From contig NZ_CP045118.1 of NCBI RefSeq assembly GCF_009189165.1, positions 372,001-436,000 on the forward strand: 64,000 nt of DNA. The letters are read 5' to 3'. The first letter of the stretch is position 1. Each line of letters opens with the position of its first letter. The translations under genes were made by a program, and so were the position numbers. The stretch is from Pseudomonas sp. SCB32. GTDB taxonomy: Bacteria; Pseudomonadota; Gammaproteobacteria; Pseudomonadales; Pseudomonadaceae. Shown in pieces: positions 39,737 to 61,476 of the stretch. The notes under the pieces were generated by a model that saw only the letters and a program-made list of their open reading frames with translations, had not been told where the DNA came from and searched no databases.

Positions 39737-39863
39737 CGATCTGCTGCGCGTCGGCGGAACGTTGTTGAAAAATGGTGCGGGTCGCTCATTTACTGCGTGT
39801 AAACTCCGCTCCCGCCCCATTTTTCGCCTAGTTCCGCTCTAGCTCGCGAGATCGTTGGCAGGC
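39737..39863. repeat. Dispersed palindromic repeat, copy A (left end truncated)
   Basis: Begins CGATCTGCTGCGCGTCGGC and ends GCTCGCGAGATCGTTGGCAG, with the central GCTCATTTACTGCGTGTAAA segment. It shares this architecture with copies at 54079-54218 and 61337-61476. It starts at the first base after the thiG stop and lacks the left outer inverted repeat seen in the other two. I do not recognise a named family. Confidence 0.85.
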
Positions 39864-39881
39864 ATTCAATAGACACCCGCG

Positions 39882-39915
39882 CGCGGGCCGGTTTGCCTCT
39901 GGTAACCGGCCCGCG
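39882..39915 (+). other. Strong GC-rich hairpin upstream of trmB
   Basis: A perfect 12-bp stem CGCGGGCCGGTT / AACCGGCCCGCG with a 10-base loop, 27 bp before the trmB start and 18 bp after repeat copy A. There is no T-run. It may be the original thiG 3' hairpin displaced by the repeat, or a leader structure of trmB. Confidence 0.5.
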
Positions 39916-39942
39916 TGTGCATTTACCCGCAAGGTCCGAGTC

Positions 39943-40659
39943 ATGAGTGATATTCCCGAGAACCAGCCCGACGCCGAAAACCGGCCGATGCGCACCATCA
40001 AGAGCTTTGTGATGCGCGCCGGGCGCATGACCGAGGGCCAGCAGCGCGGCCTTGACCAGGGCTGGCCGAAGTACGGTCTGGAACTGGCCGACGGTCTGCG
40101 GGACTTCGACCAGGTCTTCGGGCGCAAGGCGCCGCGTACCTTCGAGATCGGTTTCGGCATGGGCCACGCCACCCTGGAGATGGCTGCCGCTGCGCCGGAC
40201 CAGGATTTCATCGGCGTGGAAGTGCACCGTCCGGGTGTCGGTGCGCTGCTCAACGGCATGCTGACCGATAACCTCAGCAACATCCGCGTCTACAGCTGCG
40301 ACGCCCTGGAAGTGCTGCGCGACTGCGTGGCCGACGCCAGCCTCGACCGCCTGCTGCTGTTCTTCCCCGACCCGTGGCACAAGTCGCGTCACCACAAGCG
40401 TCGCATCGTGCAGCCGGCCTGGGCGGAGCTGGTGCGACAGAAGCTCAAGGTCGGCGGTGTGCTGCACATGGCCACAGACTGGGAACAATATGCCGAGCAC
40501 ATGCTGGAAGTGATGAATGCCGCACCCGGCTATCGCAACCTTTCGGCGGATAATACTTATGTGCCGCGCCCGGAAGAGCGTCCGGTGACCAAGTTCGAAC
40601 GGCGCGGCGAGCGCCTCGGTCACGGGGTCTGGGACCTCAAGTTCGAGCGCGTCGACTGA
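39943..40659 (+). CDS. trmB: tRNA (guanine-N7-)-methyltransferase TrmB
   Basis: A 238-residue methyltransferase that forms m7G46 in tRNA. SAM motif I is [15 protein letters not shown], and the signature [17 protein letters not shown] is complete. The length is typical. It has its own terminator; upstream lie repeat copy A and a hairpin, so the promoter position is unclear. Confidence 0.96.
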
Positions 40660-40667
40660 GCCACCCG

Positions 40668-40691
40668 AAGGCCTGCCAAGCAGGCCTTTTT
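40668..40691 (+). terminator. Rho-independent terminator of trmB
   Basis: An 8-bp stem AAGGCCTG / CAGGCCTT with loop CCAAG, followed by a T-run. Confidence 0.85.
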
Positions 40692-40823
40692 CATGGATGA
40701 GCATCGATTAGACCGGGACCACCCGGCGGCCAGGAAGGCCACCCTCACCTCCTGACATAAGCGGCGCCCGCCGCGGACGAAAATAAGAGTGGCGGACAGG
40801 AGTCCGTCGCAAAGGAGTCTGCT

Positions 40824-42170
40824 GTGTTGAAGAAACTTGCTGTACTGCTGGTGGCGGGGGTGTGGGCCCTGCCGACACAGGCGAAAGTCGATGCCGCGCA
40901 AGCGGCAAGGCTGGGCCACGACCTGACGCCAATGGGGGCGGAGAAAGCCGGCAACGCCAATGGCACCATCCCGGCCTGGAGCGGTGGCGTCACCACGCCG
41001 CCGGCCGGTTACCAGCCTGGCACCCACCATGCCGACCCTTATGCTGGCGACGCCGTACAGTACAAGGTCGACAGCAAGAATCTGGCGCAGTACCAGGCCC
41101 AGCTCACCCCGGGCACCCAGGCGCTGCTGCAGGAGAATCCGGATTACTACCTGCGCGTCTTCCCCAGTCGCCGCAGCGCATCCTTGCCCCAGCGCATTTA
41201 CGAAGCCACCCGTTTCAATGCCGAGAACGCCGAACTGATCGCCGACGGCAACGGCGTGCAGGGCGCCGCTGCCGGCGTGCCGTTCCCGATTCCGAAGAAC
41301 GGCCTGGAGGCGATCTGGAACCACATCATGCGCTACCGTGGCGAGCAGATTCACATGGTCACCAACCAGGCCGCCGTGCTCGCCAACGGCAGCTACAACC
41401 TGCTCAAGCTCGACCGCTACGTGTACTTCAACTACGGCCGCGAGGGCATGACCCCGCAGGACCTGAACAACACCCTGTTCTACTACAAGTACAACGTTGT
41501 GGCCCCGGCCAAGCTGGCCGGCTCGGCGCTGGTGGTGCAGGAGACCCTCGACCAGGTGCTGTCGATCCGCAAGGCCTGGCGCTTCAACCGTGGCGAGCGC
41601 CGCGTGCGGCGTCTGCCGAGCCTGGCCTACGACAGCCTGCAGCCGGACACCAATGGCCTGGCCACCGCCGACACCGTGGACGTCTACAACGGCGCGCCGG
41701 ACCACTACGAGTGGCAGCTGCTGGGCAAGCGCGAGATGCTGGTGCCGTACAACAGCTATGCGGTGCACCAGAAGGGCATTCCCTATGCCGATATCCTGCG
41801 CACCAAGACCCTCAACCCCGAGCTGCTGCGCTACGAGCTGCACCGGGTCTGGGTGGTCGAGGCGACCCTGCGCAAGGGCATGAGCCATCCGTTCGCCAAG
41901 CGTCGCTTCTACCTGGATGAAGACAGCTGGCAGATCCTCGCCAGCGATATCTACAACCAGGACGGCAAGCTGATCCGTGCCCAGGAAGTGCACCCGATCA
42001 ACTACTACGACGTGCCTGCGGTGCTCAGCACCCTGGAGGCGCTGTACGACCTGGAGGGCGCGCGTTACTTCGTCGACGGCCTGGACAACAACGAGCCGAT
42101 GTACGACTTCAAGGCTCCGCTGGGACCGCGTGACTTCACCCCGCAGGCGCTGCGCCGCGAGGGTAACTGA
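40824..42170 (+). CDS. DUF1329 outer-membrane-associated protein
   Basis: A 448-residue exported protein with a signal peptide (about residues 1-20, LKKLAVLLVAGVWALPTQA). The DUF1329 pattern runs through the whole length (ARLGHDLTPMGAEKAGNANG, TIPAWSGGVTTPP, RRVRRLPSLAYDSLQPDTNG and SHPFAKRRFYLDEDSWQILA). The GTG start at 40824 follows AAAGGAG with a 6-bp gap. The fold is related to lipoprotein-sorting (LolA/LolB-like) domains. Many DUF1329 genes sit beside a DUF1302 gene, but none is here. The function is not known. A strong terminator follows. Confidence 0.88.
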   Translation: MLKKLAVLLVAGVWALPTQAKVDAAQAARLGHDLTPMGAEKAGNANGTIPAWSGGVTTPPAGYQPGTHHADPYAGDAVQYKVDSKNLAQYQAQLTPGTQALLQENPDYYLRVFPSRRSASLPQRIYEATRFNAENAELIADGNGVQGAAAGVPFPIPKNGLEAIWNHIMRYRGEQIHMVTNQAAVLANGSYNLLKLDRYVYFNYGREGMTPQDLNNTLFYYKYNVVAPAKLAGSALVVQETLDQVLSIRKAWRFNRGERRVRRLPSLAYDSLQPDTNGLATADTVDVYNGAPDHYEWQLLGKREMLVPYNSYAVHQKGIPYADILRTKTLNPELLRYELHRVWVVEATLRKGMSHPFAKRRFYLDEDSWQILASDIYNQDGKLIRAQEVHPINYYDVPAVLSTLEALYDLEGARYFVDGLDNNEPMYDFKAPLGPRDFTPQALRREGN

Positions 42171-42174
42171 GTCA

Positions 42175-42209
42175 GACAAAGGCCGCCGCGAGGCGGCCTT
42201 TGTCTTTGT
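42175..42209 (+). terminator. Rho-independent terminator of the DUF1329 gene
   Basis: A 13-bp perfect stem GACAAAGGCCGCC / GGCGGCCTTTGTC with loop GCGA, followed by TTTGT. Confidence 0.85.
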
Positions 42210-42241
42210 GCGGTGTGGAATGTCGTTGCTGACGCAACGCA

Positions 42242-42302
42242 TCGCGGGCATGGCCCGCTCCTACGCCAAGGTGCCGCCCGTAGGAGCGGGCCATGCCCGC
42301 GA
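42242..42302. repeat. REP pair forming a perfect 24-bp inverted repeat
   Basis: Arms at 42242-42265 and 42279-42302 (TCGCGGGCATGGCCCGCTCC... and its complement) are perfectly complementary across 24 bp with a 13-base loop. The core is the same TAGGAGCGGGCCATGCCCGC unit found at 1457 and 56027. Confidence 0.9.
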
Positions 42303-42331
42303 GGACCGTCCGTAGGACGGTGAGTCAGAAT

Positions 42332-42586
42332 CTACTCGATCAACTCCGCTCCCAGCACCGTGGTCTCCGGCATGCGCATCGGAGCCGGGCTGATCTGCAG
42401 GTATTTGATGCTGGTGCGGGGAATGATCAGCAGGTCGCCGTCCACCTCGATGGCGATGGCTGGCGACTCCATCTGCTTGCGGATGCCACGGGCCACTTCG
42501 GCGGGGTCGTCGCTCTGTTGCGGGAAGCGCAGCGCCAGGCGCTGGCCGTCGGTGAAATGCAGGTAGAGGTGCTTGATCGGCTTCAT
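42332..42586 (-). CDS. Small conserved protein of unknown function
   Basis: An 84-residue soluble protein (MKPIKHLYLHFTDGQRLALR ...), apparently all-beta, with no signal peptide. It lies 45 bp downstream of the DUF3392 gene on the same strand and is probably co-transcribed. A homologue at this place is present in P. aeruginosa as I recall. No function can be assigned. Confidence 0.7.
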   Translation of the reverse strand: MKPIKHLYLHFTDGQRLALRFPQQSDDPAEVARGIRKQMESPAIAIEVDGDLLIIPRTSIKYLQISPAPMRMPETTVLGAELIE

Positions 42587-42631
42587 GGGTCCTCCGGCGG
42601 TGGTGGTGGATGACCGCCGGAGGCAGCGCGA

Positions 42632-42955
42632 TCAGCTGCGGTCGGCGATCATGCCAATCACGAAGAACACTAGCAGCAGGATTGGCGCCAGGGTGTAGTT
42701 GTTGAAGTAGCCCAGGCCCTTGGCCAGCCACGGGGTGACGAAGACCATCGCCAGGCCGTAGCCCACGGCACAGATCAGCACGAACAGCAGGGTGCGGAAG
42801 ACGAAGTTCAGGCTGCCGATGCGCTGCTGTACCCAGGCGTTGATCGCCGGGCCGAACAGCACCAGCACGGTGGCCATGATTGCCAGGGCGATGTCGGACA
42901 GGTGGCCGCGGCACCAGCGGGAAACGTTGGCAATCAGTTCGAGCGCGAAGTCCAT
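42632..42955 (-). CDS. DUF3392 membrane protein
   Basis: A 107-residue protein with three predicted membrane helices (IALAIMATVLVLFGPAINAW, FVFRTLLFVLICAVGYGLAM, TLAPILLLVFFVIGMIADRS), the DUF3392 pattern. The start at 42955 gives MDFALELIANVSRW. It lies 73 bp after hemW. Function unknown. Confidence 0.82.
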   Translation of the reverse strand: MDFALELIANVSRWCRGHLSDIALAIMATVLVLFGPAINAWVQQRIGSLNFVFRTLLFVLICAVGYGLAMVFVTPWLAKGLGYFNNYTLAPILLLVFFVIGMIADRS

Positions 42956-43028
42956 TGGGGCTCCTAGGGATCGAGGGTCGCCGGGGAGTGTACACGGGCG
43001 GCGCCAGCGGCGTCGCCCGGTGGGGCGG

Positions 43029-44216
43029 TCAGGGCAGGAAGCGCTGCAGCAGGTCGTTGAGGAACAACTGGCCACGCTCGGTGGGCGCCAGGCGCTGCGG
43101 GTCGTCGACCAGCAGGCCGTCGGCGCGGGCCTGGCGGCAGGCGTCGTCGATGGCGGCCAGCGGCAGGCCTGTACGCTCGGCGAACAGGGCCGCCGGAACG
43201 CCATCGGTCAGGCGCAGGGCGTTCATCATGAACTCGAAGGGCAGGTCGTCCGCCGGAAGCTCGCGCTCGCCGGCCTGGAAGGGCTTCTCCGGGTTCAGAT
43301 AGTCCTTCGGCAGGCGGGTCTTCCAGGTGCGCAGGATGCGGCCTTCCGGGGTGCTCAGCTTGGCGTGGGCGCCGGCGCCGATGCCGAGGAAGTCGCCGAA
43401 GGTCCAGTAGTTCAGGTTGTGCCGCGCGCGCTTGCCGTCATGGGCATAGGCCGAAGTCTCATACTGGAGGTAGCCGGCCTGGGCGAGCAGCGCCTGGCCA
43501 GCCTCCTGGATTTCCCACAGCTGGTCGTCCTCGGGCAGCTCCGGCGGCTGGCTCCAGAACACCGTGTTCGGCTCCATCGTCAGCTGGTACCAGGACAGGT
43601 GCGTCGGCGCCAGCGCGATGGCTTGCTCGAGGTCGGACAGGGCATCGGCGACGCTCTGCTCCGGCAGGCCGTGCATGAGGTCCAGGTTGAAGTTGTCGAA
43701 GCCGGCGCGGCGGGCCATCTCGGCGGCGCGTATGGCTTCGTCGCCGTCGTGGATGCGGCCCAGTGCCTTGAGCTTCTCGGCCTGGAAGCTCTGGATGCCG
43801 ATGGACAGGCGGTTGATGCCCAGTGCCCGGTAGTCGGCGAACTTGGCCTGCTCGAAAGTGCCGGGGTTGGCTTCCAGGGTGATCTCGATGTCGCTCTCGA
43901 AGCCGACCTGGCGTTCCAGGCCGTCGAGGATGCGCCCGAGCGCCTGGGCCGAGAACAGACTCGGCGTGCCGCCGCCGAAGAAGATCGAGGTCAGCTTGCG
44001 GCCATGGACATGCGTGCCGTCAGCGGCCAGGTCAGCCAGCAACGCCTCGACATAGGCGTCTTCCGGCAGCTCGGGCCCGGCAGCGTGGGAGTTGAAGTCG
44101 CAATAGGGGCATTTGCGCACGCACCAGGGAATGTGAACGTACGCGGACAGCGGCGGCAGGCGGAAGCCGGAAACCACCGGCCCTGCGTCGAGCCCGTGGC
44201 TTCCTGCCTGGCTCAT
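43029..44216 (-). CDS. hemW: Radical SAM heme chaperone HemW
   Basis: A 395-residue radical SAM protein. The cluster motif is [15 protein letters not shown] (CxxxCxxC followed by the HemW-specific DFNSH), and [11 protein letters not shown] and the C-terminal HemN-like domain ([20 protein letters not shown]) follow. It lacks the N-terminal extra region of true HemN, so it is HemW (heme-inserting chaperone), not coproporphyrinogen dehydrogenase. Its ATG overlaps the rdgB stop (ATGA), giving a coupled rdgB-hemW pair. Confidence 0.95.
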
Positions 44217-44806
44217 AGTCCCAGCCGCTGCTTCAGCAGGGCCATCGCGCGGGCGCGGTGGCTGAGCTGGTTCTTCTGCTGCGGCGGCAGTTCGGCGCTG
44301 GAGCACTCGGCTTCCGGCACCCAGAACAGCGGGTCGTAGCCGAAGCCATGCTCGCCGCGCGCTTCGTGCAGGATACTGCCGTGCCAGAGGCCTTCGCAGA
44401 GGATCGGCAGCGGGTCGTCGGCGTGGCGGACCAGGGCCAGCACGCTGACGAACTGGGCGCCGCGCTCATCGTCCGGTACGTCCTTGAGGGCGTCCAGCAG
44501 CTTGGCGTTGTTCGCCGCGTCACCCTTGCCATCGGCATAGCGCGCGGAGTAGATGCCCGGCGCGCCGCCGAGGTAGTCCACCGCCAGGCCCGAGTCGTCG
44601 GCCAGCGCCGGCAGGCCGGAGATGCGCGCGGCGTTGCGGGCCTTGAGGATGGCGTTCTCGACGAAGGACAGGCCGGTCTCTTCCGGTTCCACATCGCTGA
44701 ACTCGCCGATCGAGCGCACCTTCACGTGGGCGCCGAGCATGGCCTGGAGTTCCTTGAGTTTGCCGGCGTTGTGACTGGCCAGCACCAGTTGTTCGAGCTT
44801 GATCAT
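44213..44806 (-). CDS. rdgB: Non-canonical purine NTP pyrophosphatase RdgB
   Basis: A 197-residue enzyme that removes dITP, XTP and related nucleotides. Motifs: [18 protein letters not shown] (substrate/phosphate loop), [34 protein letters not shown] and GFGYDPLFW. It overlaps the DUF4426 gene before it and hemW after it by four bases each, so three genes are translationally coupled. Confidence 0.96.
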
Positions 44807-45225
44807 TCGTCGGGGAAGATTTCCTGCATGAAGTCGAAGCTTTGCGGGGCTCCGCCTCCGGACTGTACCTGGATGGTGAAGGTCAGGGTTTCGCGGCCTT
44901 CGATGGGGAACTGCGCCAGGTTGTAGACGGCGCCTTCCTCGACCACGCGCTTGAAGGTCAGGGGAATTTCCTGGCCCATCAGGTTCTTCGCGGAACCTGC
45001 GACGGTGGCGTTGGCCGGCTTGCCGTTAGCGTCCAGCGGCACGATGTTGACCACGCCCTGGGCCTTGCTGCGCACCACGCCCACGGCCTGGGCGACCTTG
45101 GGCTGGAGGAAACTGGAGTTGAACACGCTGTAGTGGACCTGGAGGTCGCCCAGGCGTTTGACCTGCTCGGCGAAGGCGGGCAGGGCGAGGGCCAGGCAGG
45201 CGATGAAGGTAAGCAGGCGGCGCAT
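44803..45225 (-). CDS. DUF4426 secreted protein
   Basis: A 140-residue protein with a clear Sec signal ([19 protein letters not shown]), then a beta-rich DUF4426 domain ([20 protein letters not shown] ...). It is present between metW and rdgB in many gammaproteobacteria. The four-base ATGA overlap with rdgB is exact. Function unknown. Confidence 0.88.
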
Positions 45226-45245
45226 GATAGTTCTCCTGGGGTCGA

Positions 45246-45866
45246 TCAGATGGCAATGCGATGGTCCTGCACGCCAGGGCCGCTGACCCGATAAATGCCG
45301 ATCTCACCCAACAGATTAGGCCAGATTCGCGAAGCCCAGCCATGCTGGTGCTCGCGGTCCACCGCCAGGTGGTCGAGAACCTTCACCTGCAACTGTCGGC
45401 ACAGGGCCTCGAAGTCGCGGAAGGTACAGAAGTGAATGTTCGGCGTGTTGTACCAAGTGTACGGAAGGAAGTCCGACACCGGCATGCGACCGTTGCGCGC
45501 GAGGTACCAGCGGCAACGCCAGTGACCGAAGTTGGGGAAGGTGATGATGCAGGTCTTGCCCACCCGCAGCATTTCCGCCAGCACCTTGTCCGGGTAGCGC
45601 AGGGCTTGCAGGGACTGCGTCATCACCACCACATCGAAGCTATTGCTGGCGAAGTTGCCCAGGCCCTTGTCCAAGTCCTGTTCGATGACGTTGACGCCAC
45701 GTTCGATGCACTTGGCGATTTTTTCGGCGTCGATCTCCAGGCCGTAGCCGCTGACCTGCTTGTGGTCGCGCAGCCAGGCGAGCAGTTCGCCGTCGCCGCA
45801 GCCCAGGTCGAGTACCCGACTGCCGGCGGGGATCCAGTCTTGGATGATGTCCAGGTCGGCGCGCAT
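45246..45866 (-). CDS. metW: Methionine biosynthesis protein MetW
   Basis: A 206-residue class I methyltransferase-fold protein (RVLDLGCGDGELLAWL, SFDVVVMTQSLQALRYPDKV). In Pseudomonas MetW works with MetX in homoserine acylation. It follows metX after 11 bp, and the two are expected to act as one unit. The start at 45866 (MRADLDIIQDWIPAGSRVLD) matches the family. Confidence 0.95.
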   Translation of the reverse strand: MRADLDIIQDWIPAGSRVLDLGCGDGELLAWLRDHKQVSGYGLEIDAEKIAKCIERGVNVIEQDLDKGLGNFASNSFDVVVMTQSLQALRYPDKVLAEMLRVGKTCIITFPNFGHWRCRWYLARNGRMPVSDFLPYTWYNTPNIHFCTFRDFEALCRQLQVKVLDHLAVDREHQHGWASRIWPNLLGEIGIYRVSGPGVQDHRIAI

Positions 45867-45877
45867 GGCGTTCCTTC

Positions 45878-47017
45878 TTATACGCTGATGCGGTTCATGT
45901 AACCGCCAAAGGCTTGCAGGTAGCGTGGAATCGGTATCAGGAAGGCGTCGTGACCTTGCGGTGCGTCGATTTCCAGATAGCTGACGTTCTTCTTCGCCGC
46001 CAGCAGGGCGTCGACGATTTCCCGCGAGCGCGCCGGGGAGAAGCGCCAATCGGTGGTGAAGGACATCAGGCAGAAGTCCGCCTTCACCCCGGCCAGGGTC
46101 CGCGCCAGGTCGCCGCCGTGGGCCGCGGCCGGATCGAAGTAGTCCAGCGCCTTGGTCATCAGCAGGTAGGTGTTGGCGTCGAAGCGGGTGGAGAACTCTT
46201 CGCCCTGGTAACGCAGGTAGCTTTCCACCTGGAACTCCACGCTGTGGAGGTCGTAGTTGAGCTTCTCCGATTTCATGTCGCGGCCGAACTTGGCGCCCAT
46301 GGCGTCATCGGAGAGATAGGTGATGTGCCCGACCATCCGCGCCAGGCTCAGGCCGCGGCGGGGAATCACGTCGTGTTCCTGGAAGTGGCCGCCGAAGAAC
46401 TCCGGGTCCGTGAGAATTGCCTGGCGCGCCACTTCGTTGAAGGCGATGTTCTGCGCCGACAGCTTGGGGGCGCTGGCGATGCACAGGCAGTGGCGTACGC
46501 GCTCGGGGTAGCTGATGGTCCACTGCAGGGCCTGCATGCCGCCCAGGCTGCCGCCGATGACCGCCGCCCACTGGGTGATGCCCAGGCGGTCGGCCAGGCG
46601 CACCTGGCTGTGGACCCAGTCTTCCACGGTGACCACCGGGAAGTCCGCGCCGTAGGTCTTGCCGGTGGTCGGGTTGAGGCTGGTCGGGCCGGTGGAGCCG
46701 TTGCAGCCGCCCAGGTTGTTCAGCGAGACGACGAAGAACTTGCGGGTGTCGATGGGCTTGCCCGGGCCGATGCAGCTGTCCCACCAGCCCGGCTTGCGGT
46801 CATCGATGCTGTGGTAGCCGGCGGCGTGGTGATGGCCGGAGAGGGCATGGCAGATCAGCACGGCGTTGCTGGCCGTGGCGTTCAGCTCGCCATAGGTCTC
46901 GATCACCAGCTGATATTCGGGCAGCGTCTTGCCGCAGGCCAGGGGCAGCGGTTCGCTGAACTGCAGTGTCTGGGGGGAGACCAGACCGACGGAATCTTCG
47001 GGGAAGACTGTAGGCAT
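45878..47017 (-). CDS. metX: Homoserine O-acyltransferase MetX
   Basis: A 379-residue alpha/beta hydrolase-fold enzyme (acetyl- or succinyl-transferase). The nucleophile elbow is [10 protein letters not shown], with [12 protein letters not shown] and the catalytic His in [11 protein letters not shown]. In Pseudomonas the enzyme uses succinyl-CoA when paired with MetW, as I recall; the acyl specificity cannot be told here. It is 75 bp downstream of the dynamin-like gene. No SAM riboswitch is visible. Confidence 0.96.
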
Positions 47018-47092
47018 CGACCCAGCTCAAGAATAAAAAAGGAGGGTCAGTCTAAAGAGCGCCGCCCCTAGCGGCAAGCGCTGGGGCGGGGT

Positions 47093-49060: not shown

Positions 49061-49177
49061 TCAAGCGTTCCTTAGGCTGGCGCATCCTGCGCGGGGATGG
49101 ATACCTTGAATTATGCGATGGCGCGCAATAGCGTCAATTGGCCTTCATCACAATACCGAACGTAAGGTCGGCCAAGG

Positions 49178-49468: not shown

Positions 49469-49474
49469 GTCTGA

Positions 49475-51425: not shown

Positions 51426-51430
51426 CGCAA

Positions 51431-52264: not shown

Positions 52265-52281
52265 GGAGTCTCTTCCTTTAT

Positions 52282-52971: not shown

Positions 52972-53043
52972 TACCGTCGCTTTCCGCCCGGCTGCTGCGA
53001 GTTCTGCGGCATTCTACCTGCTTGCTCTTGATTGGGGAGTCCC

Positions 53044-54078
53044 ATGGATATTACCGAGTTGCTCGCCTTCAGCGCCAAGCAAGGTGCTTCGGACCTGCAC
53101 CTCTCGGCCGGTCTGCCGCCGATGATCCGCGTCGACGGGGACGTTCGCCGGATCAACCTGCCGCCACTCGAGCACAAGCAGGTCCATGCGCTGATCTACG
53201 ACATCATGAACGACAAGCAGCGCAAGGACTTTGAAGAGTTCCTCGAGACCGACTTCTCCTTCGAAGTCCCCGGGGTCGCCCGTTTCCGGGTCAATGCCTT
53301 CAACCAGAACCGTGGCGCCGGCGCCGTGTTCCGTACCATTCCCTCCAAGGTACTCACGATGGAGGACCTGGGCATGGGAGAAGTGTTCAAGCGTATTACG
53401 GACGTGCCGCGCGGCCTCGTGCTGGTGACCGGCCCGACCGGCTCGGGCAAGTCCACCTCGCTGGCGGCGATGCTCGATTACCTGAACAACACCAAGTACA
53501 GCCACATCCTCACCGTCGAAGACCCGATCGAATTCGTCCACGAGTCGAAGAAGTGCCTGGTCAACCAGCGCGAGGTGCACCGCGATACCCTCGGCTTCAA
53601 CGAGGCGCTGCGCTCGGCCCTGCGTGAAGACCCGGACATCATCCTGGTGGGCGAGATGCGCGACCTGGAGACCATTCGCCTGGCGCTGACCGCCGCGGAA
53701 ACCGGTCACCTGGTCTTCGGTACCCTGCACACCACCTCCGCGGCCAAGACCATCGACCGTATCGTCGACGTGTTCCCCGCCGAGGAAAAGTCCATGGTTC
53801 GCTCCATGCTTTCCGAATCCTTGCAGTCGGTGATCTCCCAGACCCTGCTGAAGAAGATCGGCGGCGGTCGGGTGGCGGCCCACGAGATCATGATCGGCAC
53901 CCCGGCGATCCGTAACCTGATCCGTGAAGACAAGGTCGCGCAGATGTACTCGTCGATCCAGACCGGCGGTGCGATCGGCATGCAGACCCTGGACATGTGC
54001 CTGAAGGGTCTGGTCGCCAAGGGTCTGGTGACCCGCGAGGCGGCCAAGGAAAAGGCCAAGATTCCGGAAAACTTCTAA
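53044..54078 (+). CDS. pilT: Type IV pilus retraction ATPase PilT
   Basis: A 344-residue hexameric secretion ATPase, the length of PAO1 PilT. Walker A is GPTGSGKST, the Asp box is LREDPDIILVGEMRD, the His box follows, and the C-terminal AIRNLIRE motif essential for retraction is present (PAIRNLIREDKVAQMYS). The ATG at 53044 starts MDITELLAFSAKQGASDLHL; a GTG upstream (53032) is not needed. It powers twitching motility. Repeat copy B begins at the base after its stop. Confidence 0.98.
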   Translation: MDITELLAFSAKQGASDLHLSAGLPPMIRVDGDVRRINLPPLEHKQVHALIYDIMNDKQRKDFEEFLETDFSFEVPGVARFRVNAFNQNRGAGAVFRTIPSKVLTMEDLGMGEVFKRITDVPRGLVLVTGPTGSGKSTSLAAMLDYLNNTKYSHILTVEDPIEFVHESKKCLVNQREVHRDTLGFNEALRSALREDPDIILVGEMRDLETIRLALTAAETGHLVFGTLHTTSAAKTIDRIVDVFPAEEKSMVRSMLSESLQSVISQTLLKKIGGGRVAAHEIMIGTPAIRNLIREDKVAQMYSSIQTGGAIGMQTLDMCLKGLVAKGLVTREAAKEKAKIPENF

Positions 54079-54218
54079 GAGCCTGCTTTCGATCTGCTGC
54101 GCGTCGGCAGAGCGGCGTTGAAATCGGTCTCGGGATGCTCATTTACTGAACGTAAACTCTGCTCCCTTCACCGATTTCCCCTTGTTCTGCTCTGGCTCGC
54201 GAGATCGTAAACAGGCTC
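54079..54218. repeat. Dispersed palindromic repeat, copy B
   Basis: A 140-bp element between pilT and pilU. The outer inverted repeats GAGCCTGCTTTCGATCT (54079-54095) and AGATCGTAAACAGGCTC (54202-54218) pair in 15 of 17 positions, and the interior shares GCTGCGCGTCGGC, GCTCATTTACTG and GCTCGCGAGATCG with copies A and C. It starts exactly after the pilT TAA. Confidence 0.88.
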
Positions 54219-54225
54219 AAAACCA

Positions 54226-54246
54226 CCGGGCCGATCACCGGCCCGG
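54226..54246 (+). other. GC-rich hairpin between pilT and pilU
   Basis: An 8-bp perfect stem CCGGGCCG / CGGCCCGG with loop ATCAC, 8 bp after repeat copy B. It has no T-run and may be a leftover pilT 3' hairpin or a pilU leader structure. A similar hairpin follows copy A. Confidence 0.45.
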
Positions 54247-54325
54247 CGCACGGAGCGCGCCACACGCACTCGCTCCGTGATCCGACAGCATTGTCGTAGT
54301 CAGCGTGAACCCGGCGGGAACGATC

Positions 54326-55471
54326 ATGGAATTCGAGAAGCTGTTGCGCCTCATGGTGGAAAAGGGTGCCTCCGACCTCTTCATCACGGCGGGCGTGCCG
54401 CCTTCGATGAAGGTCAACGGCAAGGTGCTGCCGGTGACCAAGACCGCGCTGTCGCCGGAGCAGACCCGTGAAACCGTGCTCTCGGTGATGAACGAGCAGC
54501 AGCGCCGCGAGTTCGCCGAGAACCACGAGTGCAACTTCGCCATCAGCGCCCGTGGCGTCGGCCGTTTCCGTGTCAGTGCCTTCTACCAGCGCAACCTGGT
54601 GGGCATGGTGCTGCGCCGCATCGAGACCAACATCCCGACCATCGAAGACCTCAAGCTGCCGGAAGTCCTCAAGAAGCTGGCGATGACCAAGCGTGGCCTG
54701 GTGATCTTCGTCGGTGCCACCGGTACCGGTAAGTCCACCTCGCTGGCGGCGATGATCGGCTACCGCAACAAGAACTCCACCGGCCACATCATCTCCATCG
54801 AAGACCCGATCGAATACATCCACCAGCACCAGGGTTGCATCGTCACCCAGCGCGAGGTGGGCTTGGATACCGATTCTTTCGAAGTGGCCCTGAAGAACAC
54901 CCTGCGCCAGGCGCCTGACGTGATCATGATCGGCGAGGTGCGCTCGCGCGAGACCATGGACCACGCGGTGGCCTTCGCCGAAACCGGCCACCTGTGCCTG
55001 GCGACCCTGCACGCCAACAACGCCAACCAGGCGCTGGAGCGGATCATCCACTTCTTCCCGGCCGACCGGCATGGCCAGGTGTGGATGGACCTGTCGCTCA
55101 ACCTCAAGGCCATCGTCGCCCAGCAGCTGGTGTCGACCCCGGACGGCAAGGGCCGCCGCGCGGTGATCGAGGTGCTGCTGAACACCCCGCTGGCCGCCGA
55201 CCTGATCCGCAAGGGCGAGGTGCACGAGCTCAAGCCGCTGATGAAACGCTCCACCGAGCAGGGGATGCAGACCTTCGACCAGGCGCTGTACCAGCTCTAC
55301 AGCCAGGGCGAGATCACCTACGAAGACGCACTGGCGTACGCCGACTCGGCCAACGACCTGCGCCTGATGATCAAGCTGGGTTCGGAAACCGATGCCGACC
55401 ACCTCTCCACCATGACCCAGGGGTTGACCCTGGAGATGAGCGACGACGACCCCAATCGCCGATTCCGCTGA
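54326..55471 (+). CDS. pilU: Type IV pilus accessory retraction ATPase PilU
   Basis: A 381-residue PilT paralogue. Walker A is GATGTGKST, and the Asp and His boxes (RQAPDVIMIGEVRSRETMDH) are conserved, but the AIRNLIRE motif of PilT is replaced (AADLIRKGEVHEL), as in PilU of P. aeruginosa. The ATG at 54326 gives MEFEKLLRLMVEKGASDLFI, the known N-terminus; a GTG at 54305 is less likely. It works with PilT in pilus retraction. Confidence 0.96.
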   Translation: MEFEKLLRLMVEKGASDLFITAGVPPSMKVNGKVLPVTKTALSPEQTRETVLSVMNEQQRREFAENHECNFAISARGVGRFRVSAFYQRNLVGMVLRRIETNIPTIEDLKLPEVLKKLAMTKRGLVIFVGATGTGKSTSLAAMIGYRNKNSTGHIISIEDPIEYIHQHQGCIVTQREVGLDTDSFEVALKNTLRQAPDVIMIGEVRSRETMDHAVAFAETGHLCLATLHANNANQALERIIHFFPADRHGQVWMDLSLNLKAIVAQQLVSTPDGKGRRAVIEVLLNTPLAADLIRKGEVHELKPLMKRSTEQGMQTFDQALYQLYSQGEITYEDALAYADSANDLRLMIKLGSETDADHLSTMTQGLTLEMSDDDPNRRFR

Positions 55472-55486
55472 TCGACGATGCCCGAG

Positions 55487-55509
55487 AAGCCCGCCTAGCG
55501 CGGGCTTTT
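55487..55509 (+). terminator. Rho-independent terminator of pilU
   Basis: An 8-bp stem AAGCCCGC / GCGGGCTT with loop CTAGC, ending in TTTT. Confidence 0.8.
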
Positions 55510-55549
55510 CGTTTATTCTGGGTGTACCGCAACAACACGGGAGAAAGGC

Positions 55550-55954
55550 ATGTCCGCCAACCCTGACACCCACAGCAAGGTCATTGGCTACCTGCTGTGG
55601 ATCTTTGGCTTCACCGGCTCACACCGCTTCTACTATGGTCGCCCCATCACCGGGACCATCTGGTTCTTCACCCTCGGCCTGTTCTTCATCGGCTGGATCA
55701 TCGACCTGTTCCTCATCCCCTCCATGGACGATGCGGCGGACCGCCGTTACCGCGCCGGCGGAGTGGACTACAACGTCGCCTGGATCCTGCTGACCTTCCT
55801 CGGCGTGTTCGGCGTGCACCGCATGTACATGGGCAAGTGGCTCACCGGCATCCTCTATCTGTGCACCGGCGGGCTGTTCTTCATCGGTGTGCTCTACGAC
55901 TTCTGGACCCTGAACAGCCAGATTTCCGAGCGCAACGGTCCGCAGCGCATCTGA
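55550..55954 (+). CDS. TM2 domain-containing protein (two TM2 units)
   Basis: A 134-residue membrane protein with two TM2 units, each a pair of helices with a central G-x-H-R-F/M-Y motif: GFTGSHRFYYGRPITGTIWF and GVFGVHRMYMGKWLTGILYL. The conserved DRF-like turn of TM2 appears as HRFY/HRMY. Function is unknown; TM2 proteins are found in many bacteria. It is separated from pilU by a terminator. Confidence 0.85.
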   Translation: MSANPDTHSKVIGYLLWIFGFTGSHRFYYGRPITGTIWFFTLGLFFIGWIIDLFLIPSMDDAADRRYRAGGVDYNVAWILLTFLGVFGVHRMYMGKWLTGILYLCTGGLFFIGVLYDFWTLNSQISERNGPQRI

Positions 55955-56272
55955 TTCCAGCGCGCTCTTGCGGCTTTGCCGCCGCGGGCCTGGCGCGACT
56001 CTGCGGCGGGTCCGACTCCGTATCCCCTGTAGGAGCGTGCCATGCCCGCGATCGCGCCCATGGGGCGCTCCTACAGGTAAAGGCCGTGCATACCTGTTGC
56101 GCTTGCAGGAGCGGACTCAATCCGCGACGGCCCGCCCCACGCCGGAGTCCGTGCCGGCACCGCCGTCTTTCGTCGCACCGCCTGGCGATCCCTTCGCCGC
56201 CCGCCTAAGGTCAGGAGGACAGTAGCAGGCGCCGCCGGGCGATCCCTGGGGCGCCAAGAAGGAGTGGCTGCC
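55955..56272. other. 318-bp intergenic region before the cystathionine genes
   Basis: No gene is visible. It contains a REP unit at 56027-56076, a partial REP (CAGGAGCGGACTCAATCCGC) near 56105, and the presumed promoter of the cystathionine beta-synthase gene. Confidence 0.6.
56027..56076. repeat. REP element, near-identical twin of 1457-1506
   Basis: Fifty bases from CTGTAGGAGC to GCTCCTACAG. It differs from the unit at 1457-1506 at a single position (GAGCGTGCC instead of GAGCGGGCC), although they are over 54 kb apart. Confidence 0.9.
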
Positions 56273-57646
56273 ATGAGCAACGAATCCCGTCCCGCGGTAC
56301 TCGACCTGATCGGCAATACCCCCATGGTCCGCGTCACGCGCTTCGATACCGGACCCTGCACCCTGTTCCTCAAGCTCGAATCGCAGAACCCCGGCGGCTC
56401 CATCAAGGACCGCATCGGCGTCGCCATGATCGAAACCGCCGAGCGACAAGGCCGGCTCAAGCCCGGCGGCGTGATAGTCGAAGCCACCGCCGGCAATACC
56501 GGGCTAGGGCTGGCGCTGGTCGGCCGCGCCAAGGGCTACCGGGTCGTGCTGGTGGTGCCGGACAAGATGTCCACCGAGAAGGTGCTGCACCTGCGGGCCA
56601 TGGGCGCCGAGGTGCACATCACCCGCTCCGATGTCGGCAAGGGGCACCCGGAGTACTACCAGGACGTCGCCGCGCGGCTGGCGAAGGAGCTGCCCGACGC
56701 CTTCTTCGCCGACCAGTTCAACAACCCGGCCAACCCCCTGGCCCACGAGACCGGCACCGGTCCGGAGATCTGGGCGCAGACCGGCCATGACCTCGACGCC
56801 GTGGTGGTCGGGGTCGGCTCCGCCGGTACCCTGACCGGACTGACCCGCTTCTTCCAGAAAGTCCAGCCGAAGCTGGAAATGGTCCTGGCCGATCCGGTGG
56901 GATCGATCATGGCCGAGTACTCTCGCTCCGGCACCATCGGTACGCCCGGCTCCTGGGCGGTGGAGGGCATCGGCGAAGACTTCGTGCCGTCGATCGCCGA
57001 CCTTTCCAGCGTGCGCCACGCCTACTCGATCAGCGACGAAGAAAGCTTCGCCACCGCCCGGGAGCTGTTGCGCAACGAAGGCATTGCCGCCGGTTCATCC
57101 ACCGGCACCCTGCTGGCCGCCGCGCTGCGCTTCTGCCGCGAGCAGACCGAACCCAAGCGCGTGGTCAGCCTGGTCTGTGACACCGGCACCCGCTACCTCT
57201 CGAAGATCTACAACGACCAGTGGATGACCGACCAGGGCCTGCTGCAGCGCAAGCGTTACGGCGACCTGCGCGACATCGTCGCGCGGCGCTTCGAGGAGGG
57301 CCGGGTGGTCAGCGTCGGCCCCGGCGACACCTTGCTCACCGCCTTCCAGCGCATGCGCCTGGCGGACGTCTCGCAGCTGCCGGTACTGGACGGCGGGCGG
57401 CTGGTGGGTGTCATCGACGAGTCGGACATTCTGATGGGCGTCCACGACGATCCCAGCCACTACCGCTGCGATGTTGCCAGCGCCATGAGTAATGCGCCCG
57501 AAACCCTTGCGCCCGGCGCCAGCCTGGCGGAGCTCGAGGCGGTGCTCGATCGCGGGCTGGTGGCGATCATCGCCGATGCCTCGGGCTTCCATGGCCTGAT
57601 TACCCGTTTCGATCTGCTCAACCATTTGCGGAGGACCCTCGCATGA
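56273..57646 (+). CDS. cbs: Cystathionine beta-synthase (PLP enzyme with C-terminal CBS domains)
   Basis: A 457-residue protein. The catalytic domain (residues ~1-320) has the PLP lysine in NPGGSIKDRIG (Lys45), the substrate loop EATAGNTGLGLAL and the phosphate cup VGVGSAGTLTGLTR; the C-terminal ~120 residues form a Bateman pair of CBS domains. There is no heme-binding N-terminal extension. It condenses homocysteine and serine. The ATG at 56273 follows AAGGAG. It is coupled to the downstream gamma-lyase (ATGA overlap), giving reverse transsulfuration from homocysteine to cysteine. Confidence 0.94.
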   Translation: MSNESRPAVLDLIGNTPMVRVTRFDTGPCTLFLKLESQNPGGSIKDRIGVAMIETAERQGRLKPGGVIVEATAGNTGLGLALVGRAKGYRVVLVVPDKMSTEKVLHLRAMGAEVHITRSDVGKGHPEYYQDVAARLAKELPDAFFADQFNNPANPLAHETGTGPEIWAQTGHDLDAVVVGVGSAGTLTGLTRFFQKVQPKLEMVLADPVGSIMAEYSRSGTIGTPGSWAVEGIGEDFVPSIADLSSVRHAYSISDEESFATARELLRNEGIAAGSSTGTLLAAALRFCREQTEPKRVVSLVCDTGTRYLSKIYNDQWMTDQGLLQRKRYGDLRDIVARRFEEGRVVSVGPGDTLLTAFQRMRLADVSQLPVLDGGRLVGVIDESDILMGVHDDPSHYRCDVASAMSNAPETLAPGASLAELEAVLDRGLVAIIADASGFHGLITRFDLLNHLRRTLA

Positions 57647-58812
57647 GCCAGCACCACGACCGCCTCGGTTTCGCCACCCGTGTGATCCATGCGGGCCAGG
57701 AGCCGGACCCGTCCACCGGGGCGATCATGCCGCCGATCTACGCCAACTCCACCTACCGCCAGGACAGCCCTGGCGTGCACAAGGGGCTGGACTACGGCCG
57801 CTCGCACAACCCCACGCGCTGGGCGCTGGAGCGCTGCGTGGCGGACCTGGAAGGCGGCACCAAGGCATTCGCCTTCGCCTCCGGTCTGGCGGCGATTTCG
57901 GCGGTGCTGGAGCTGCTCGACGCCGGCTCCCACGTCGTTTCCGGCAATGATCTCTACGGCGGCACCTTCCGCCTGTTCGAGCGGGTACGCCGCCGCAGCG
58001 CCGGGCATGACTTCCACTTCGCCGACCTGGCCCAGCCCGGCGCGCTGGAAGCGGCGCTCACCGACAAGACTCGCATGGTCTGGGTGGAAACCCCGAGCAA
58101 CCCGCTGCTGCGCCTGACCGATCTGGCCGCCATCGCCCGTACCTGCCGCGAGCGCGGCATCCTCTGCGTGGCCGACAACACTTTCGCCAGTCCCTATGTA
58201 CAGCGCCCGCTGGACCTGGGCTTCGACATCGTCGTGCACTCCACCACCAAGTATCTCAATGGCCATTCGGACGTGATCGGCGGCATCGCCATCGTCGGTG
58301 ACAACCCTGACCTCGCCGAACGCCTGGGCTTCCTGCAGAACTCGGTGGGCGCCATCGCCGGCCCGTTCGACGCCTTCCTCACCCTGCGCGGGGTGAAGAC
58401 CCTGGCTCTGCGCATGGAACGGCACTGCGCCAACGCCCTGGAGCTGGCCAAGTGGCTGGAGCAGCAGCCGCAGGTGAAGCGGGTCTATTACCCCGGTCTT
58501 GCCTCGCACCCGCAGCATGAACTGGCGCGCAAGCAGATGAAGGGCTTCGGCGGGATGATCTCGCTGGATCTGAATACCGACCTCGCCGGCTCGAAACGTT
58601 TCCTGGAGAACGTCCAACTGTTCGCCCTGGCGGAAAGCCTGGGTGGCGTGGAAAGTCTGATCGAGCACCCGGCGATCATGACCCACGCCAGCATCCCGGC
58701 GGAGAACCGCGCGGAGCTGGGCATCGGTGACTCGCTGATTCGGCTGTCGGTGGGGGTGGAGGACGTGGAGGACCTGCGCGCCGACCTGGCCAGGGCCCTG
58801 GCGACGATCTGA
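57643..58812 (+). CDS. Cystathionine gamma-lyase / gamma-synthase-family PLP enzyme
   Basis: A 389-residue Cys/Met-metabolism PLP enzyme. The PLP lysine lies in HSTTKYLNGHSDVIGG; the N-terminal TRVIHAGQEPDPSTGAIMPP and YSRSHNPTRWALE-like motifs (YGRSHNPTRWALERCVADLE) are typical. Paired with cystathionine beta-synthase it most likely acts as the gamma-lyase, splitting cystathionine to cysteine. A gamma-synthase activity is not excluded by sequence. The start overlaps the previous stop by four bases. Confidence 0.92.
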   Translation: MSQHHDRLGFATRVIHAGQEPDPSTGAIMPPIYANSTYRQDSPGVHKGLDYGRSHNPTRWALERCVADLEGGTKAFAFASGLAAISAVLELLDAGSHVVSGNDLYGGTFRLFERVRRRSAGHDFHFADLAQPGALEAALTDKTRMVWVETPSNPLLRLTDLAAIARTCRERGILCVADNTFASPYVQRPLDLGFDIVVHSTTKYLNGHSDVIGGIAIVGDNPDLAERLGFLQNSVGAIAGPFDAFLTLRGVKTLALRMERHCANALELAKWLEQQPQVKRVYYPGLASHPQHELARKQMKGFGGMISLDLNTDLAGSKRFLENVQLFALAESLGGVESLIEHPAIMTHASIPAENRAELGIGDSLIRLSVGVEDVEDLRADLARALATI

Positions 58813-58861
58813 CGCCCTGCGCCGACCCGCTTTCCGTAGAAGCCGCGCACGCCTGCGCCTT

Positions 58862-58943
58862 CGTAGGATGGTGTGGAGCGAAGCGATACCCATCATTTGC
58901 GGCACTGACAGCATGGGTATCGCTGCGCTCCACCCATCCTACG
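58862..58943. repeat. Extragenic palindrome (CGTAGGATGGGT type)
   Basis: An imperfect inverted repeat whose arms run CGTAGGATGGTGTGGAGCGA ... and ... GCGCTCCACCCATCCTACG, with ATACCCAT/ATGGGTAT in the inner part and a ~20-base loop. It is unrelated to the REP and 140-bp families above. Confidence 0.85.
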
Positions 58944-58970
58944 TCCGAGCTCCCTGCACGGGCGCTAAAG

Positions 58971-58998
58971 AAAAAGCCCGCCAATCGGCGGGCTTTTT
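58971..58998. terminator. Bidirectional rho-independent terminator
   Basis: A 12-bp perfect stem AAAAAGCCCGCC / GGCGGGCTTTTT with loop AATC between the convergent gamma-lyase and pyrC' genes; A- and T-runs serve both directions. Confidence 0.9.
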
Positions 58999-59015
58999 TA
59001 TGGAACAGTGCAGCG

Positions 59016-60287
59016 TTACACCGCGTGGACGATATGCCCGTCCACCAGGGTGCAGCGCACCACGCCCGGCAGGCAGTGGCCAAGGAACGGGCAGTTCTGG
59101 CCACGGGAGTGCCAGGTCTCGCCCGCCAGGGTCTGGCCGTCGGCTTCGAACAGCACCACGTCTGCCGCAGCACCCACCGCCAGCTTGCCGGCTGGCAGGC
59201 GCAAGGCGGCGGCCGGGCCGCTGGACAGACGCGCCAGCAGGGTCGGCAGGTCGAGCAGGCCGTCCTGCACCAGGGTCATGGCCAGCGGCAGCAGCAGTTC
59301 GACACTGCTGATGCCCGGGTCGGTGGCGGCGAACGGGGCGTTCTTCGCGTCCGGCTCGTGGGGCTGGTGGTGGCTGGCGATGGCCTGGATCACGCCACTC
59401 TTCACCGCTTCGCGCAGGGCGTCGCGGTCCTTGCGCGAGCGCAGCGGCGGCTGCACGTGGTACAGGCTGGAGAAGTCCGCCAGCGCCTCGTCGGTGAGGA
59501 TCAGCTGGTACAGCGCCACGTCGGCGGTGACCGGCAGGCCGCGGGCCTGGGCCTGGGCGATCAGCTCGACGCCACGGGCGCTGGTCAGCTGGCTGAAGTG
59601 CGCGCGCACGCCGGACTGTTCCACCAGCAGCAGGTTGCGCGCCAGGGCCACGGACTCGGCGGTTTCCGGGATGCCGGCCAGGCCGCGGAAGCTGGCAGTC
59701 GGGCCTTCGTGGGCGATACCGCCTTCGGCCAGGTCGTGGTCCTGGGAGGTGAAGATCACGGTCAGGTCGAAGGTTGCTGCGTATTCCAGCGAGCGCAGCA
59801 GCACGCGGTTGCTCGCCATCGGCGCCAGGCCGTTGGTGAAGGCCACGCAGCCGGCGTCGCGCAGGGCGACCAGCTCGGACAGCTGCTCGCCGCCCAGGCC
59901 CTTGGTCAGGGCGCCGATGGGGAAGACCTTGGCGTTGCCGGCCTCGCGGGCGCGGTCGAGGATCAGCTCGGCCACCGCCGAGGTGTCCAGCACCGGTTTG
60001 GTCTGCGGCGGGAAGCACAGGCTGGTGACGCCACCTGCAGCGGCGGCGCGGGTTTCGCTTTCGATGCTGCCCTTGCGGCTGTAGCCCGGCTCGCGCAGGG
60101 CAACGCTCAGGTCTACCAGGCCAGGCGCGGCGATCAGGCCGGCGGCGTCGATTTCCTGGGCGGCGTGGAAGTCGGCGGGGGCATCGCCGATGGCGATGAT
60201 GCGGCCGGCCTCGATGTGCAGGTCGCAGACCTTGTCCAGGCCGCTGGCCGGGTCGATCAGGTGGGCGCCACGAATACTGACGGTCAT
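59016..60287 (-). CDS. pyrC': Dihydroorotase-like protein, catalytically inactive (PyrC')
   Basis: A 423-residue amidohydrolase homologue, the length of PAO1 PyrC'. The zinc-binding DxHxHxR region of active dihydroorotases reads [15 protein letters not shown], so both histidines are missing and no zinc centre can form. As established for Pseudomonas, such proteins are structural partners of aspartate transcarbamoylase (PyrB) and do not catalyse the reaction. The gene overlaps pyrB by four bases (ATGA), which fits a fixed stoichiometry. Confidence 0.95.
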
Positions 60288-61288
60288 TGCGCGTCCTCCT
60301 GTTCCAGCTGTCGTTGCGCGTTCTGGCCGCTCATGGCCATGGACAGCACGGCCATGCGGATGGCGATGCCGTAGGTGACCTGGTTGAGGATCACCGACTG
60401 TTCGCCGTCGGCCACGGCGGAGTCGATCTCCACGCCGCGGTTGATCGGGCCGGGGTGCATGACGATGGCATCGGGCTTGGCCAGCTTCAGGCGCTTCTGG
60501 GTCAGGCCGTAGAGCTTGAAGAACTCGCCTTCGCTGGGCAGCAGGCCGCCGGCCATGCGCTCGCGCTGCAGGCGCAGCATGATCACCACGTCGACGTCCT
60601 TCAGGCCCTCGTTGGCGTCGGTGAACACCTTTACCCCGTATTGCTCTTCCAGGCCCACCGGCAGCAGGGTGCGCGGGGCGATGACGCGGATGTCCGGGCA
60701 GCCCAGGGTTTTCAGCGCGAGCATGTCGGAGCGTGCCACCCGCGAGTGCAGGATGTCGCCGACGATGGCCACCGAGAGGTTCTCGAAGCTGCCCTTGTGG
60801 CGGCGGATGGTGAGCATGTCGAGCATGCCCTGGGTCGGGTGGCCGTGGCGGCCGTCGCCACCGTTGATTACGGCGACATTGGGGCTGACGTGTTCGGCGA
60901 TGAAGTGCGCGGCGCCCGAGTCGCTGTGGCGCACGACGAACATGTCGGCGGCCATGGCTTCCAGGTTGCGCAGGGTGTCGGTGAGCGTCTCGCCCTTGCT
61001 GGTCGAGGAAGTCGACACGTTCAGCGAGATGACGTCGGCGGACAGGCGCTGGGCGGCCAGTTCGAAGGTGGTGCGGGTGCGTGTGGAGTTCTCGAAGAAC
61101 ACGTTGCACACGGTCTTGCCGCGCAGCAGCGGGACTTTCTTCACCGCGCGGGCGCCGACTTCGAGGAAGGAGTCGGCGGTATCGAGGATTTCAGTCAGCA
61201 GTTCGCGGGACAACCCGTCGAGCGAGAGGAAGTGGCGCAGCTGGCCCAGGTCGTTGAGCTGCAGCGGGCGCTTGGCGTCGGTCGGCAT
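60284..61288 (-). CDS. pyrB: Aspartate carbamoyltransferase catalytic subunit PyrB
   Basis: A 334-residue enzyme for the committed step of pyrimidine synthesis. The carbamoyl-phosphate motif is [14 protein letters not shown], followed by [19 protein letters not shown] and [14 protein letters not shown]. In Pseudomonas it forms a dodecamer with the inactive PyrC'. It is 188 bp downstream of pyrR; that gap is largely filled by repeat copy C. Confidence 0.97.
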
Positions 61289-61336
61289 GTGGCAGGCCCT
61301 GAAAGTAGGAGGTGGAGGTCCAGGCGCGCGGGGCTG

Positions 61337-61476
61337 GAACCTGTTTACGATCTGCTGCGCGTCGGCATAACGGCGTTGAAATCGCTCTCGGGATGCTCAT
61401 TTACTGCGTGTAAATTCCGCTCCCTCAACCGATTTCGCCTTGTTCTGCTCTAGCTCGCGAGATCGTAAGCAGGTTC
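61337..61476. repeat. Dispersed palindromic repeat, copy C
   Basis: A 140-bp element between pyrB and pyrR. The outer inverted repeats GAACCTGTTTACGATCT (61337-61353) and AGATCGTAAGCAGGTTC (61460-61476) pair in 16 of 17 positions. Its right end touches the pyrR stop codon (TAA on the minus strand, 61477-61479). The orientation of the interior is the same as in copies A and B, although the neighbouring gene points the other way. Confidence 0.88.

Follow-up and report, generated by a model that had tools for sequence, protein, structure and literature searches.

Three copies of a palindromic repeat of about 140 bp lie in a 64,000-nucleotide stretch of the Pseudomonas sp. SCB32 genome (contig NZ_CP045118.1, positions 372,001 to 436,000; hereafter the window), one at the stop codon of thiG (copy A), one at that of pilT (copy B) and one at that of pyrR (copy C). 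The results described below point to a miniature inverted-repeat transposable element (MITE) of the IS1031 type which is set at TNA trinucleotides, stop codons among them, and of which the copies in sense orientation are kept as a hairpin-forming 3' untranslated region (3' UTR); we put the probability of this reading at about 70%.

Complete copies of the element have inverted ends of 16-17 bp (GARCCTGTTTACGATC(T); GARCCTGTTTACGATC on one side and GATCGTAAACAGGYTC on the other) and lie between direct repeats of the form TNA. To define the target, copies with similar flanks were collapsed, viral contigs and copies closer than 350 bp to the end of a stretch were left out, and 177 independent insertions were retained, 116 from Pseudomonas and relatives and 61 from Chromobacteriaceae. 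Identical TNA was present on both sides in 107 of these, and 172 had TNA next to at least one end; the preferred target was CTNAG. The terminal repeats are of the IS1031-subgroup type, as seen when GARCCTGTTTACGATC(T) is set beside the 17-bp ends of ISLrh (GAACCTGTCTAGTATCT), an 857-bp insertion sequence (IS) of the IS5 family, IS1031 subgroup, with a TNA target, a 3-bp repeat and a transposase encoded by two open reading frames (PMC12016507). Because of its ends, its TNA target, its 3-bp duplication and an IS partner that shares the same end, the element is, judging from these sequence features, a non-autonomous IS1031-type (IS5 family) MITE. The preliminary description of the window, which had offered no family name, can thus be supplied with one.

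The partner was reached through solitary ends in Chromobacterium. This IS has the identical 17-bp end GAACCTGTTTACGATCT, followed by the reversed C-terminus of a transposase, and in C. haemolyticum it lies at the ends of many contigs. The C-terminal piece of 60 amino acids exceeds the Pfam cut-offs for DDE_Tnp_1 and DDE_Tnp_1_2; against NCBIfam transpos_IS5_3 it scores 62.4 bits, below the whole-protein cut-off of 110, and a 139-amino-acid piece from a related IS scores 114.2 bits. Relatives of IS size (840-876 bp) with similar ends were also found: four are flanked by identical TNA on both sides (TAA in L389; TTA in L390, L393 and L520), and in others the flanks differ (TAA/TTA in L360 and L519, TTA/TTG in L509). 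Over its outermost 40-44 bases, the Chromobacterium IS agrees with ends of MITE-sized elements at 84-88%, as would be expected if the MITE were a deletion derivative. Within the genus, a search of 56 genomes for IS5_3 transposases, with 30 loci examined, yielded no partner: such transposases occur in 12 of the 56 genomes, and the three loci with this end type (L500, L509 and L516) all belong to a single genome from the same family, and two of these are one and the same place. When 25 genomes of the genus were scanned with an end pattern that excludes the usual MITE core, the two places matched both turned out to be copies of the MITE.

Empty sites in relatives indicate that the insertions in the window targeted the stop codon itself. 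At pilT, the element was present in two of the 30 loci shown, those of the own genome and of genome G002, which carry the same insertion as judged by a shared variant end; the empty site of the nearest relatives reads TTCTAA/CYCCACCGGG, and the filled one TTCTAA/element/AAAACCACCGGG. At pyrR, where one of the 30 loci shown carried the element, the empty site is GCTGTAA/CTCCGCGCGCC and the filled one GCTGTAA/element/CAGCCCCGCGCGCC. At thiG the element was seen in five of the 30 loci shown, the empty site of other relatives being ATCAACTAAGTATT; a single insertion with a shortened left arm is common to the own genome, G002 and G017, and those in G014 and G034 are apparently separate insertions at the same stop codon, with a perfect TGA duplication in G034. 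Each of the three window insertions thus appears to have struck the gene's own stop codon, TAA in every case, and of the two duplicates the one that forms the stop apparently persists while the other decays. Since TAA and TGA (TTA and TCA on the other strand) are themselves TNA sites, the element lies flush with stops and regenerates them. Counting the loci at the thiG stop (L109, L120, L123, L127 and L128), apparently at least three independent insertions have occurred there, every one of them sense-oriented.

To examine how far the target motif accounts for this adjacency, each element was excised in silico and all TNA sites in the same intergenic gap were enumerated, with gene calls from a hexamer model for which either the window or the Chromobacteriaceae loci had served as training set. 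The test used 165 of the 177 insertions, the other 12 lying inside a called coding sequence, lying in a gap that reached the end of the stretch, or having no TNA. Stop codons were the site in 109 of the 165, where random choice among TNA sites predicts 66.7 and a fitted CTNAG preference predicts 88.7; with that preference fitted over all sites, a residual stop term of 1.28 was left (p 3e-7). Sites of the TTAG kind, at which the first G of the element restores TAG, were counted as stop sites (3 of the 107 perfect duplications). The excess lay mainly in Pseudomonas and relatives (74 of 105 at stops, predicted 58.8); in the Chromobacteriaceae, 35 of 60 were at stops where 30.1 were predicted (p 0.03), and perfect duplications gave 24 of 42, with 21.0 predicted (p 0.13). 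With 88.7 of the 109 predicted from the motif by itself, the adjacency can for the most part be accounted for by a transposase target that coincides with stop codons, without these being recognised as such; a real excess is left beyond it. Divergent gaps were under-used, making up 12 of 145 insertion gaps as compared to 100 of 362 other gaps of the same loci. In the own genome, the nearest facing stop lies within 3 nt of the element's end in 29 of 57 copies and within 20 nt in 39 of 57, a distribution unlike the random distances that would have spoken against the proposal of a stop-targeted, MITE-like, non-coding element. The MITE-like and non-coding nature and the non-random adjacency of that proposal hold good, and its target needs to be reworded, from a place next to a stop codon to the TNA trinucleotide.

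The orientation of the insertions was scored by taking the CTGCTGCGCG end as left and calling sense those elements whose left end faces the gene that was hit; 5 of the 177 could not be oriented. At stops, sense copies outnumbered the opposite ones by 82:19 (101 orientable cases, p 1.7e-10), with 58:9 in Pseudomonas and 24:10 in Chromobacteriaceae, and the preponderance was observed both in convergent (35:5) and in tandem gaps (47:14). Away from stops, tandem-gap sites leaned the opposite way (14:28). The pattern used to scan named genomes requires an intact left TNA and might favour sense copies; hence sets found by BLAST and by the covariance model were also counted. The BLAST-found set alone gave 36:6 at stops, and 26:3 for perfect duplications. 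The model-found set comprised 46 of the 57 places in the own genome, 41 of 42 in G002, 47 of 55 in G020 and none of 18 in G003; in these three contributing genomes, 57 of the 80 independent sites of copies with decayed ends lay at stops (-15 to +3 nt), the ratio of sense to opposite being 46:11; for copies with intact ends the figures were 14 of 26 and 11:3. When only a nearest facing stop within 20 nt is considered, the own genome has 33 sense copies and 6 opposite ones. The preliminary description had taken placement to be independent of element orientation, a view which the 82:19 ratio contradicts; copy C, on which it leaned, is a minority case. An asymmetry of the target was considered as the cause and rejected, as the middle base of TNA has no effect at non-stop sites (17:18) and no AT asymmetry was seen in the flanks. 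Two bases downstream, A is slightly over-represented (29 A, as compared to 12 T at the mirror position), by our estimate too little to produce 82:19.

Across 59 copies, the interior of the element forms a long hairpin of 32 pairs, 27 of which show compensatory changes. Paired cells amounted to 91.8%, compared to 76.6% in shuffles and 32-43% when the partner was slid, and doubly changed compensatory cells numbered 281 versus 74 in shuffles. Conserved segments include GCTGCGCGTCGGC, GCGTTG, GCTCA, CTCCGC and TAGCTCGC. Among the 140 of 177 elements with a length of 132-146 that were folded, the antisense strand was the more stable one (mean -65.1 kcal/mol versus -58.1 for sense), because some of the conserved mismatches turn into G-U on that strand, a hint that it is the sense strand in its open form that has been retained. 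The base of the stem is rich in A/T, and the terminator tail score was higher for sense than for antisense in 123 of the 140. A promoter scan at A, B and C found none, and Rfam gave no match at the copies when the whole window was searched at gathering scores, nor for copy B at E<=1.

These observations can be brought together as follows. A DDE transposase from an IS with the same ends would act in trans and insert the MITE at TNA, preferably within CTNAG. The sequences show that the three target bases are duplicated, and a stop codon that serves as target (TAA or TGA, or TTA or TCA on the opposite strand) is regenerated with the protein left intact; at TTAG the first G of the element rebuilds TAG. 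Insertions within genes would be purged and, intergenic gaps being short, a large share of the survivors would lie in stop codons. Beyond this, those insertions are over-represented whose sense strand opens the 3' UTR of the gene. The long hairpin of the sense RNA would then be a tolerated or useful mRNA 3' end, possibly by protecting that end or by helping termination.

Several results weigh against steps of this reading. As to the transposase, no autonomous partner was detected in the own genome (no IS5_3 match at E<=1e-10 and no IS-sized pair of ends), and no full-length IS was found that carries the identical 17-bp end on both sides, contig breaks intervening; a partner in the own genome is not a defining requirement, and it may have been lost since. 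As to selection on the sense RNA, a scan at A, B and C limited to loops of 3-8 detected no standard terminator, and in 87 tandem-gap copies G-U exceeded A-C in transcript orientation by only 93:73 (p 0.14, the conserved U-G pair included). In 17 orthologous pairs matched by both flanks, stems diverged as much as loops (63/992, or 6.4%, versus 70/969, or 7.2%), and 3 compensatory changes stood against 28 breaking ones. An earlier count of 71 cells changed on both sides with the pair kept was inflated by one-flank clusters or by elements less than 85% identical, and was superseded by the 17-pair set. The covariation therefore belongs more clearly to the mobile lineages than to resident copies. 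Finally, the youngest-looking Pseudomonas copies, those with intact ends, are as biased as old ones (24:3), and the bias in Chromobacteriaceae is weak, with 5:2 among copies with intact ends.

Since the bias is as strong in young copies, a slow sieve does not explain it, and a bias of insertion becomes a serious rival. One possible explanation, which we consider rather unlikely, is that insertion is coupled to the 3' ends of genes, the transposition complex being drawn and oriented by the termination of transcription or translation, so that the stop excess and the sense bias arise together. The ratio among young copies (28:4 when those with a near-identical sister copy are taken), the inability of the TNA middle base or of flank AT asymmetry to account for the bias, and the scant sign of constraint on the fold after insertion all fit such coupling. 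It is harder to reconcile with the opposite lean at non-stop sites in tandem gaps and with the weakness of both excess and bias in Chromobacteriaceae, and we know of no IS5-family mechanism that couples insertion to gene ends. That the CTNAG target suffices, stops being merely the TNA sites that survive and no preference for stops or orientation being added, is less probable still: the motif does predict most of the stop insertions, and the perfect duplications of Chromobacteriaceae show no significant excess beyond it, while the residual stop term and the orientation ratio at stops both argue for something more.

The compensatory changes in the hairpin may have another source, namely repair of the palindrome, in which template switching between the arms rewrites one from the other and pairing is preserved independently of function. 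The changes run nearly all from one Watson-Crick pair to another with few wobble cells, and both-sided changes in the orthologous pairs number 8, compared to 3.2 under independence, as such repair would have it; yet the pair was kept in just 3 of those 8, and the unpaired core segments and conserved mismatches have not been mended into perfect palindromes, which leaves this explanation doubtful. It is most improbable that the element is a repeat of the repetitive extragenic palindrome (REP) or bacterial interspersed mosaic element (BIME) type, or an integron attC-like site: it shares with these its palindromic, structured and intergenic character, and the identical TNA duplications, the 16-17 bp ends and the IS5 partner with the same end contradict it.

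The features of the window are compiled in Table 1. The preliminary description was accurate as to the existence of the three copies, the borders of B and C and the positions of the three stop codons, and also in noting that A and B meet their gene by one end and C by the other. A covariance model built from 59 training copies (the three window copies among them, as such or as identical DNA with another locus identifier) supports all three and places them on the + strand; it extends copy A, so that the thiG stop falls within the outer arm of that copy and not outside its end. Beyond what had been described are the 3-bp target duplication and the covarying inner hairpin. Identity is 88% between B and C over 140 bp, and over the 127 bp earlier given for A it is 77% between A and B and 81% between A and C.

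Table 1. Copies of the element in the window and the target trinucleotides beside them.
Feature	Position	Strand	Description	Basis
Copy A	39726..39865	+	behind thiG; left arm ~11 bp short, gene stop abuts CGATC	covariance model, 129.8 bits
thiG stop TGA	39734..39736	+	TNA target of copy A; TAA in empty sites of near relatives	
pilT stop TAA	54076..54078	+	left half of the 3-bp target duplication of copy B	empty site in relatives
Copy B	54079..54218	+	complete, 140 bp, ends GAGCCTGCTTTCGATC / GATCGTAAACAGGCTC; sense relative to pilT	covariance model, 148.2 bits
AAA	54219..54221	+	probable decayed right half of the TAA duplication of copy B	sequence versus empty sites
CTG (CAG in pyrR sense)	61334..61336	+	probable decayed outer half of the TAA/TTA duplication of copy C	sequence versus empty sites
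Copy C	61337..61476	+	complete, 140 bp, ends GAACCTGTTTACGATC / GATCGTAAGCAGGTTC; opposite to pyrR, the minority orientation	covariance model, 160.1 bits
pyrR stop TAA (TTA on +)	61477..61479	-	retained half of the target duplication of copy C	sequence and empty sites

All three window copies are at TAA genes (thiG ancestrally so); the stops called in the window are 56 TGA, 8 TAA and 4 TAG, and in the first insertion set 46 insertions were at stops, 13 of them TAA and 32 TGA. Elsewhere in the window, Rfam matches were obtained for P34, a Pseudomonas small RNA (3846-4221, 111 bits), and for the COG3860 RNA (2107-2163, 64.7 bits).

In the single 6.31-Mb contig of the own genome the covariance model found the element in 57 places at E<=0.01, from 61 hits of which four were the opposite strand of a place already counted, and the end pattern gave 23+20 matches as compared to 2+3 for a reversed control; the repeat is well above chance. 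With stricter filters (E<=1e-10), and among the matches listed, it was present in at least 37 of 56 genomes, the own and its relatives, with at least 58 matches in one genome. The scan of named genomes placed it, again among the matches listed, in many Pseudomonas and also in Chromobacterium and Pseudogulbenkiania, both of which are Betaproteobacteria. Copies measure 36-245 bp, mostly 139-142, and have no coding capacity. Variants of 197-198 and 245 bp (L008, L022, L043-L046, L053 and L127) carry one or two GC-rich inserts within the hairpin; in several copies the kind of insert and its position agree, much as nested repeats would. At the other extreme, a 36-bp element (L143, 1576-1611; G000:C1:4952775-4952810) consists of the two inverted ends only, adjoining TAA and TCA. 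Four Chromobacterium loci (L371, L372, L378 and L228) combine the usual core with the ends GAACCTGTTCAAAGTCT, which match those of a different IS (L520, and the left end of L360), and their core seems to have swapped partner through a change of ends. In C. aquaticum (L247, 7388-8000), two elements with this end type share one TAA, head to head with an IS end. The TNA-GARCCTGYTYACGATC end was also seen in 17 stretches of viral contigs (L341-L357), some of them with the MITE core (L348 and L350), and phages or prophages may be carriers of the element; a search of phage and plasmid records with copy C gave no match at E<=1e-5.

The following comparisons refer to excerpts of the cited accounts. 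The element resembles ISLrh in its 17-bp ends (GAACCTGTCTAGTATCT versus GAACCTGTTTACGATCT), TNA target and 3-bp duplication; it differs in its length of ~140 bp, in the lack of a gene and in the covarying hairpin, which is absent from the ISLrh text seen (PMC12016507). MITEPsy1 of P. syringae, a 100-nt element found in few genomes with ends GGAAGGTCTGAAAAAGCC and a 4-nt target CTAG or YTAA, is likewise a Pseudomonas MITE devoid of genes and linked to an IS5-like IS (ISPsy2), and the movement demonstrated in vivo is that of MITEPsy1 (PMC3189936). Identity of the two was rejected, as the present element has a 3-bp TNA target and other ends. R178 of P. fluorescens, an intergenic repeat of 101 bp that contains an 11-bp inverted repeat, is possibly of the same family, a likeness drawn from its description and not from a consensus sequence; the excerpt describes no target, IS partner or stop codon rule for it, and reports that P. 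fluorescens repeats in general favour tail-to-tail gaps (Silby et al., PMC2718517). The BOX, RUP and SPRITE elements of Streptococcus are also MITE-like repeats of bacteria, and their RNA structure resembles that of terminators or riboswitches; they have other sequences and another host, and the term 'stop codon' is absent from the review that describes them (PMC10969869). A literature search by title or start of abstract, with supplements outside its scope, returned no paper on insertion of an IS or MITE at stop codons and no IS1031/TNA counterpart, and the core sequences searched as text returned none. In the literature so covered, neither the stop codon duplication rule nor the sense bias was found.

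Taken further, the preferred reading of an IS1031-type MITE with retained sense copies leads to a broader and more tentative suggestion, to which we give somewhat less than even odds: the element may act as a structured RNA that is mobile, namely as a MITE of the IS5 type with a transposase target that coincides with stop codons, inserted or kept in sense as a ready-made 3' UTR, sparing the genes, its orientation arising from selection on the sense RNA or from insertion coupled to gene ends. A target that coincides with the stop codon trinucleotide, together with its duplication, would be a simple rule for settling a dense bacterial genome without damage to genes. The copies would also provide a large natural set of 3' UTR insertions, with empty sister sites, for studying the effects of structured 3' ends on mRNA fate, and the strong sense bias at stops is directly testable.

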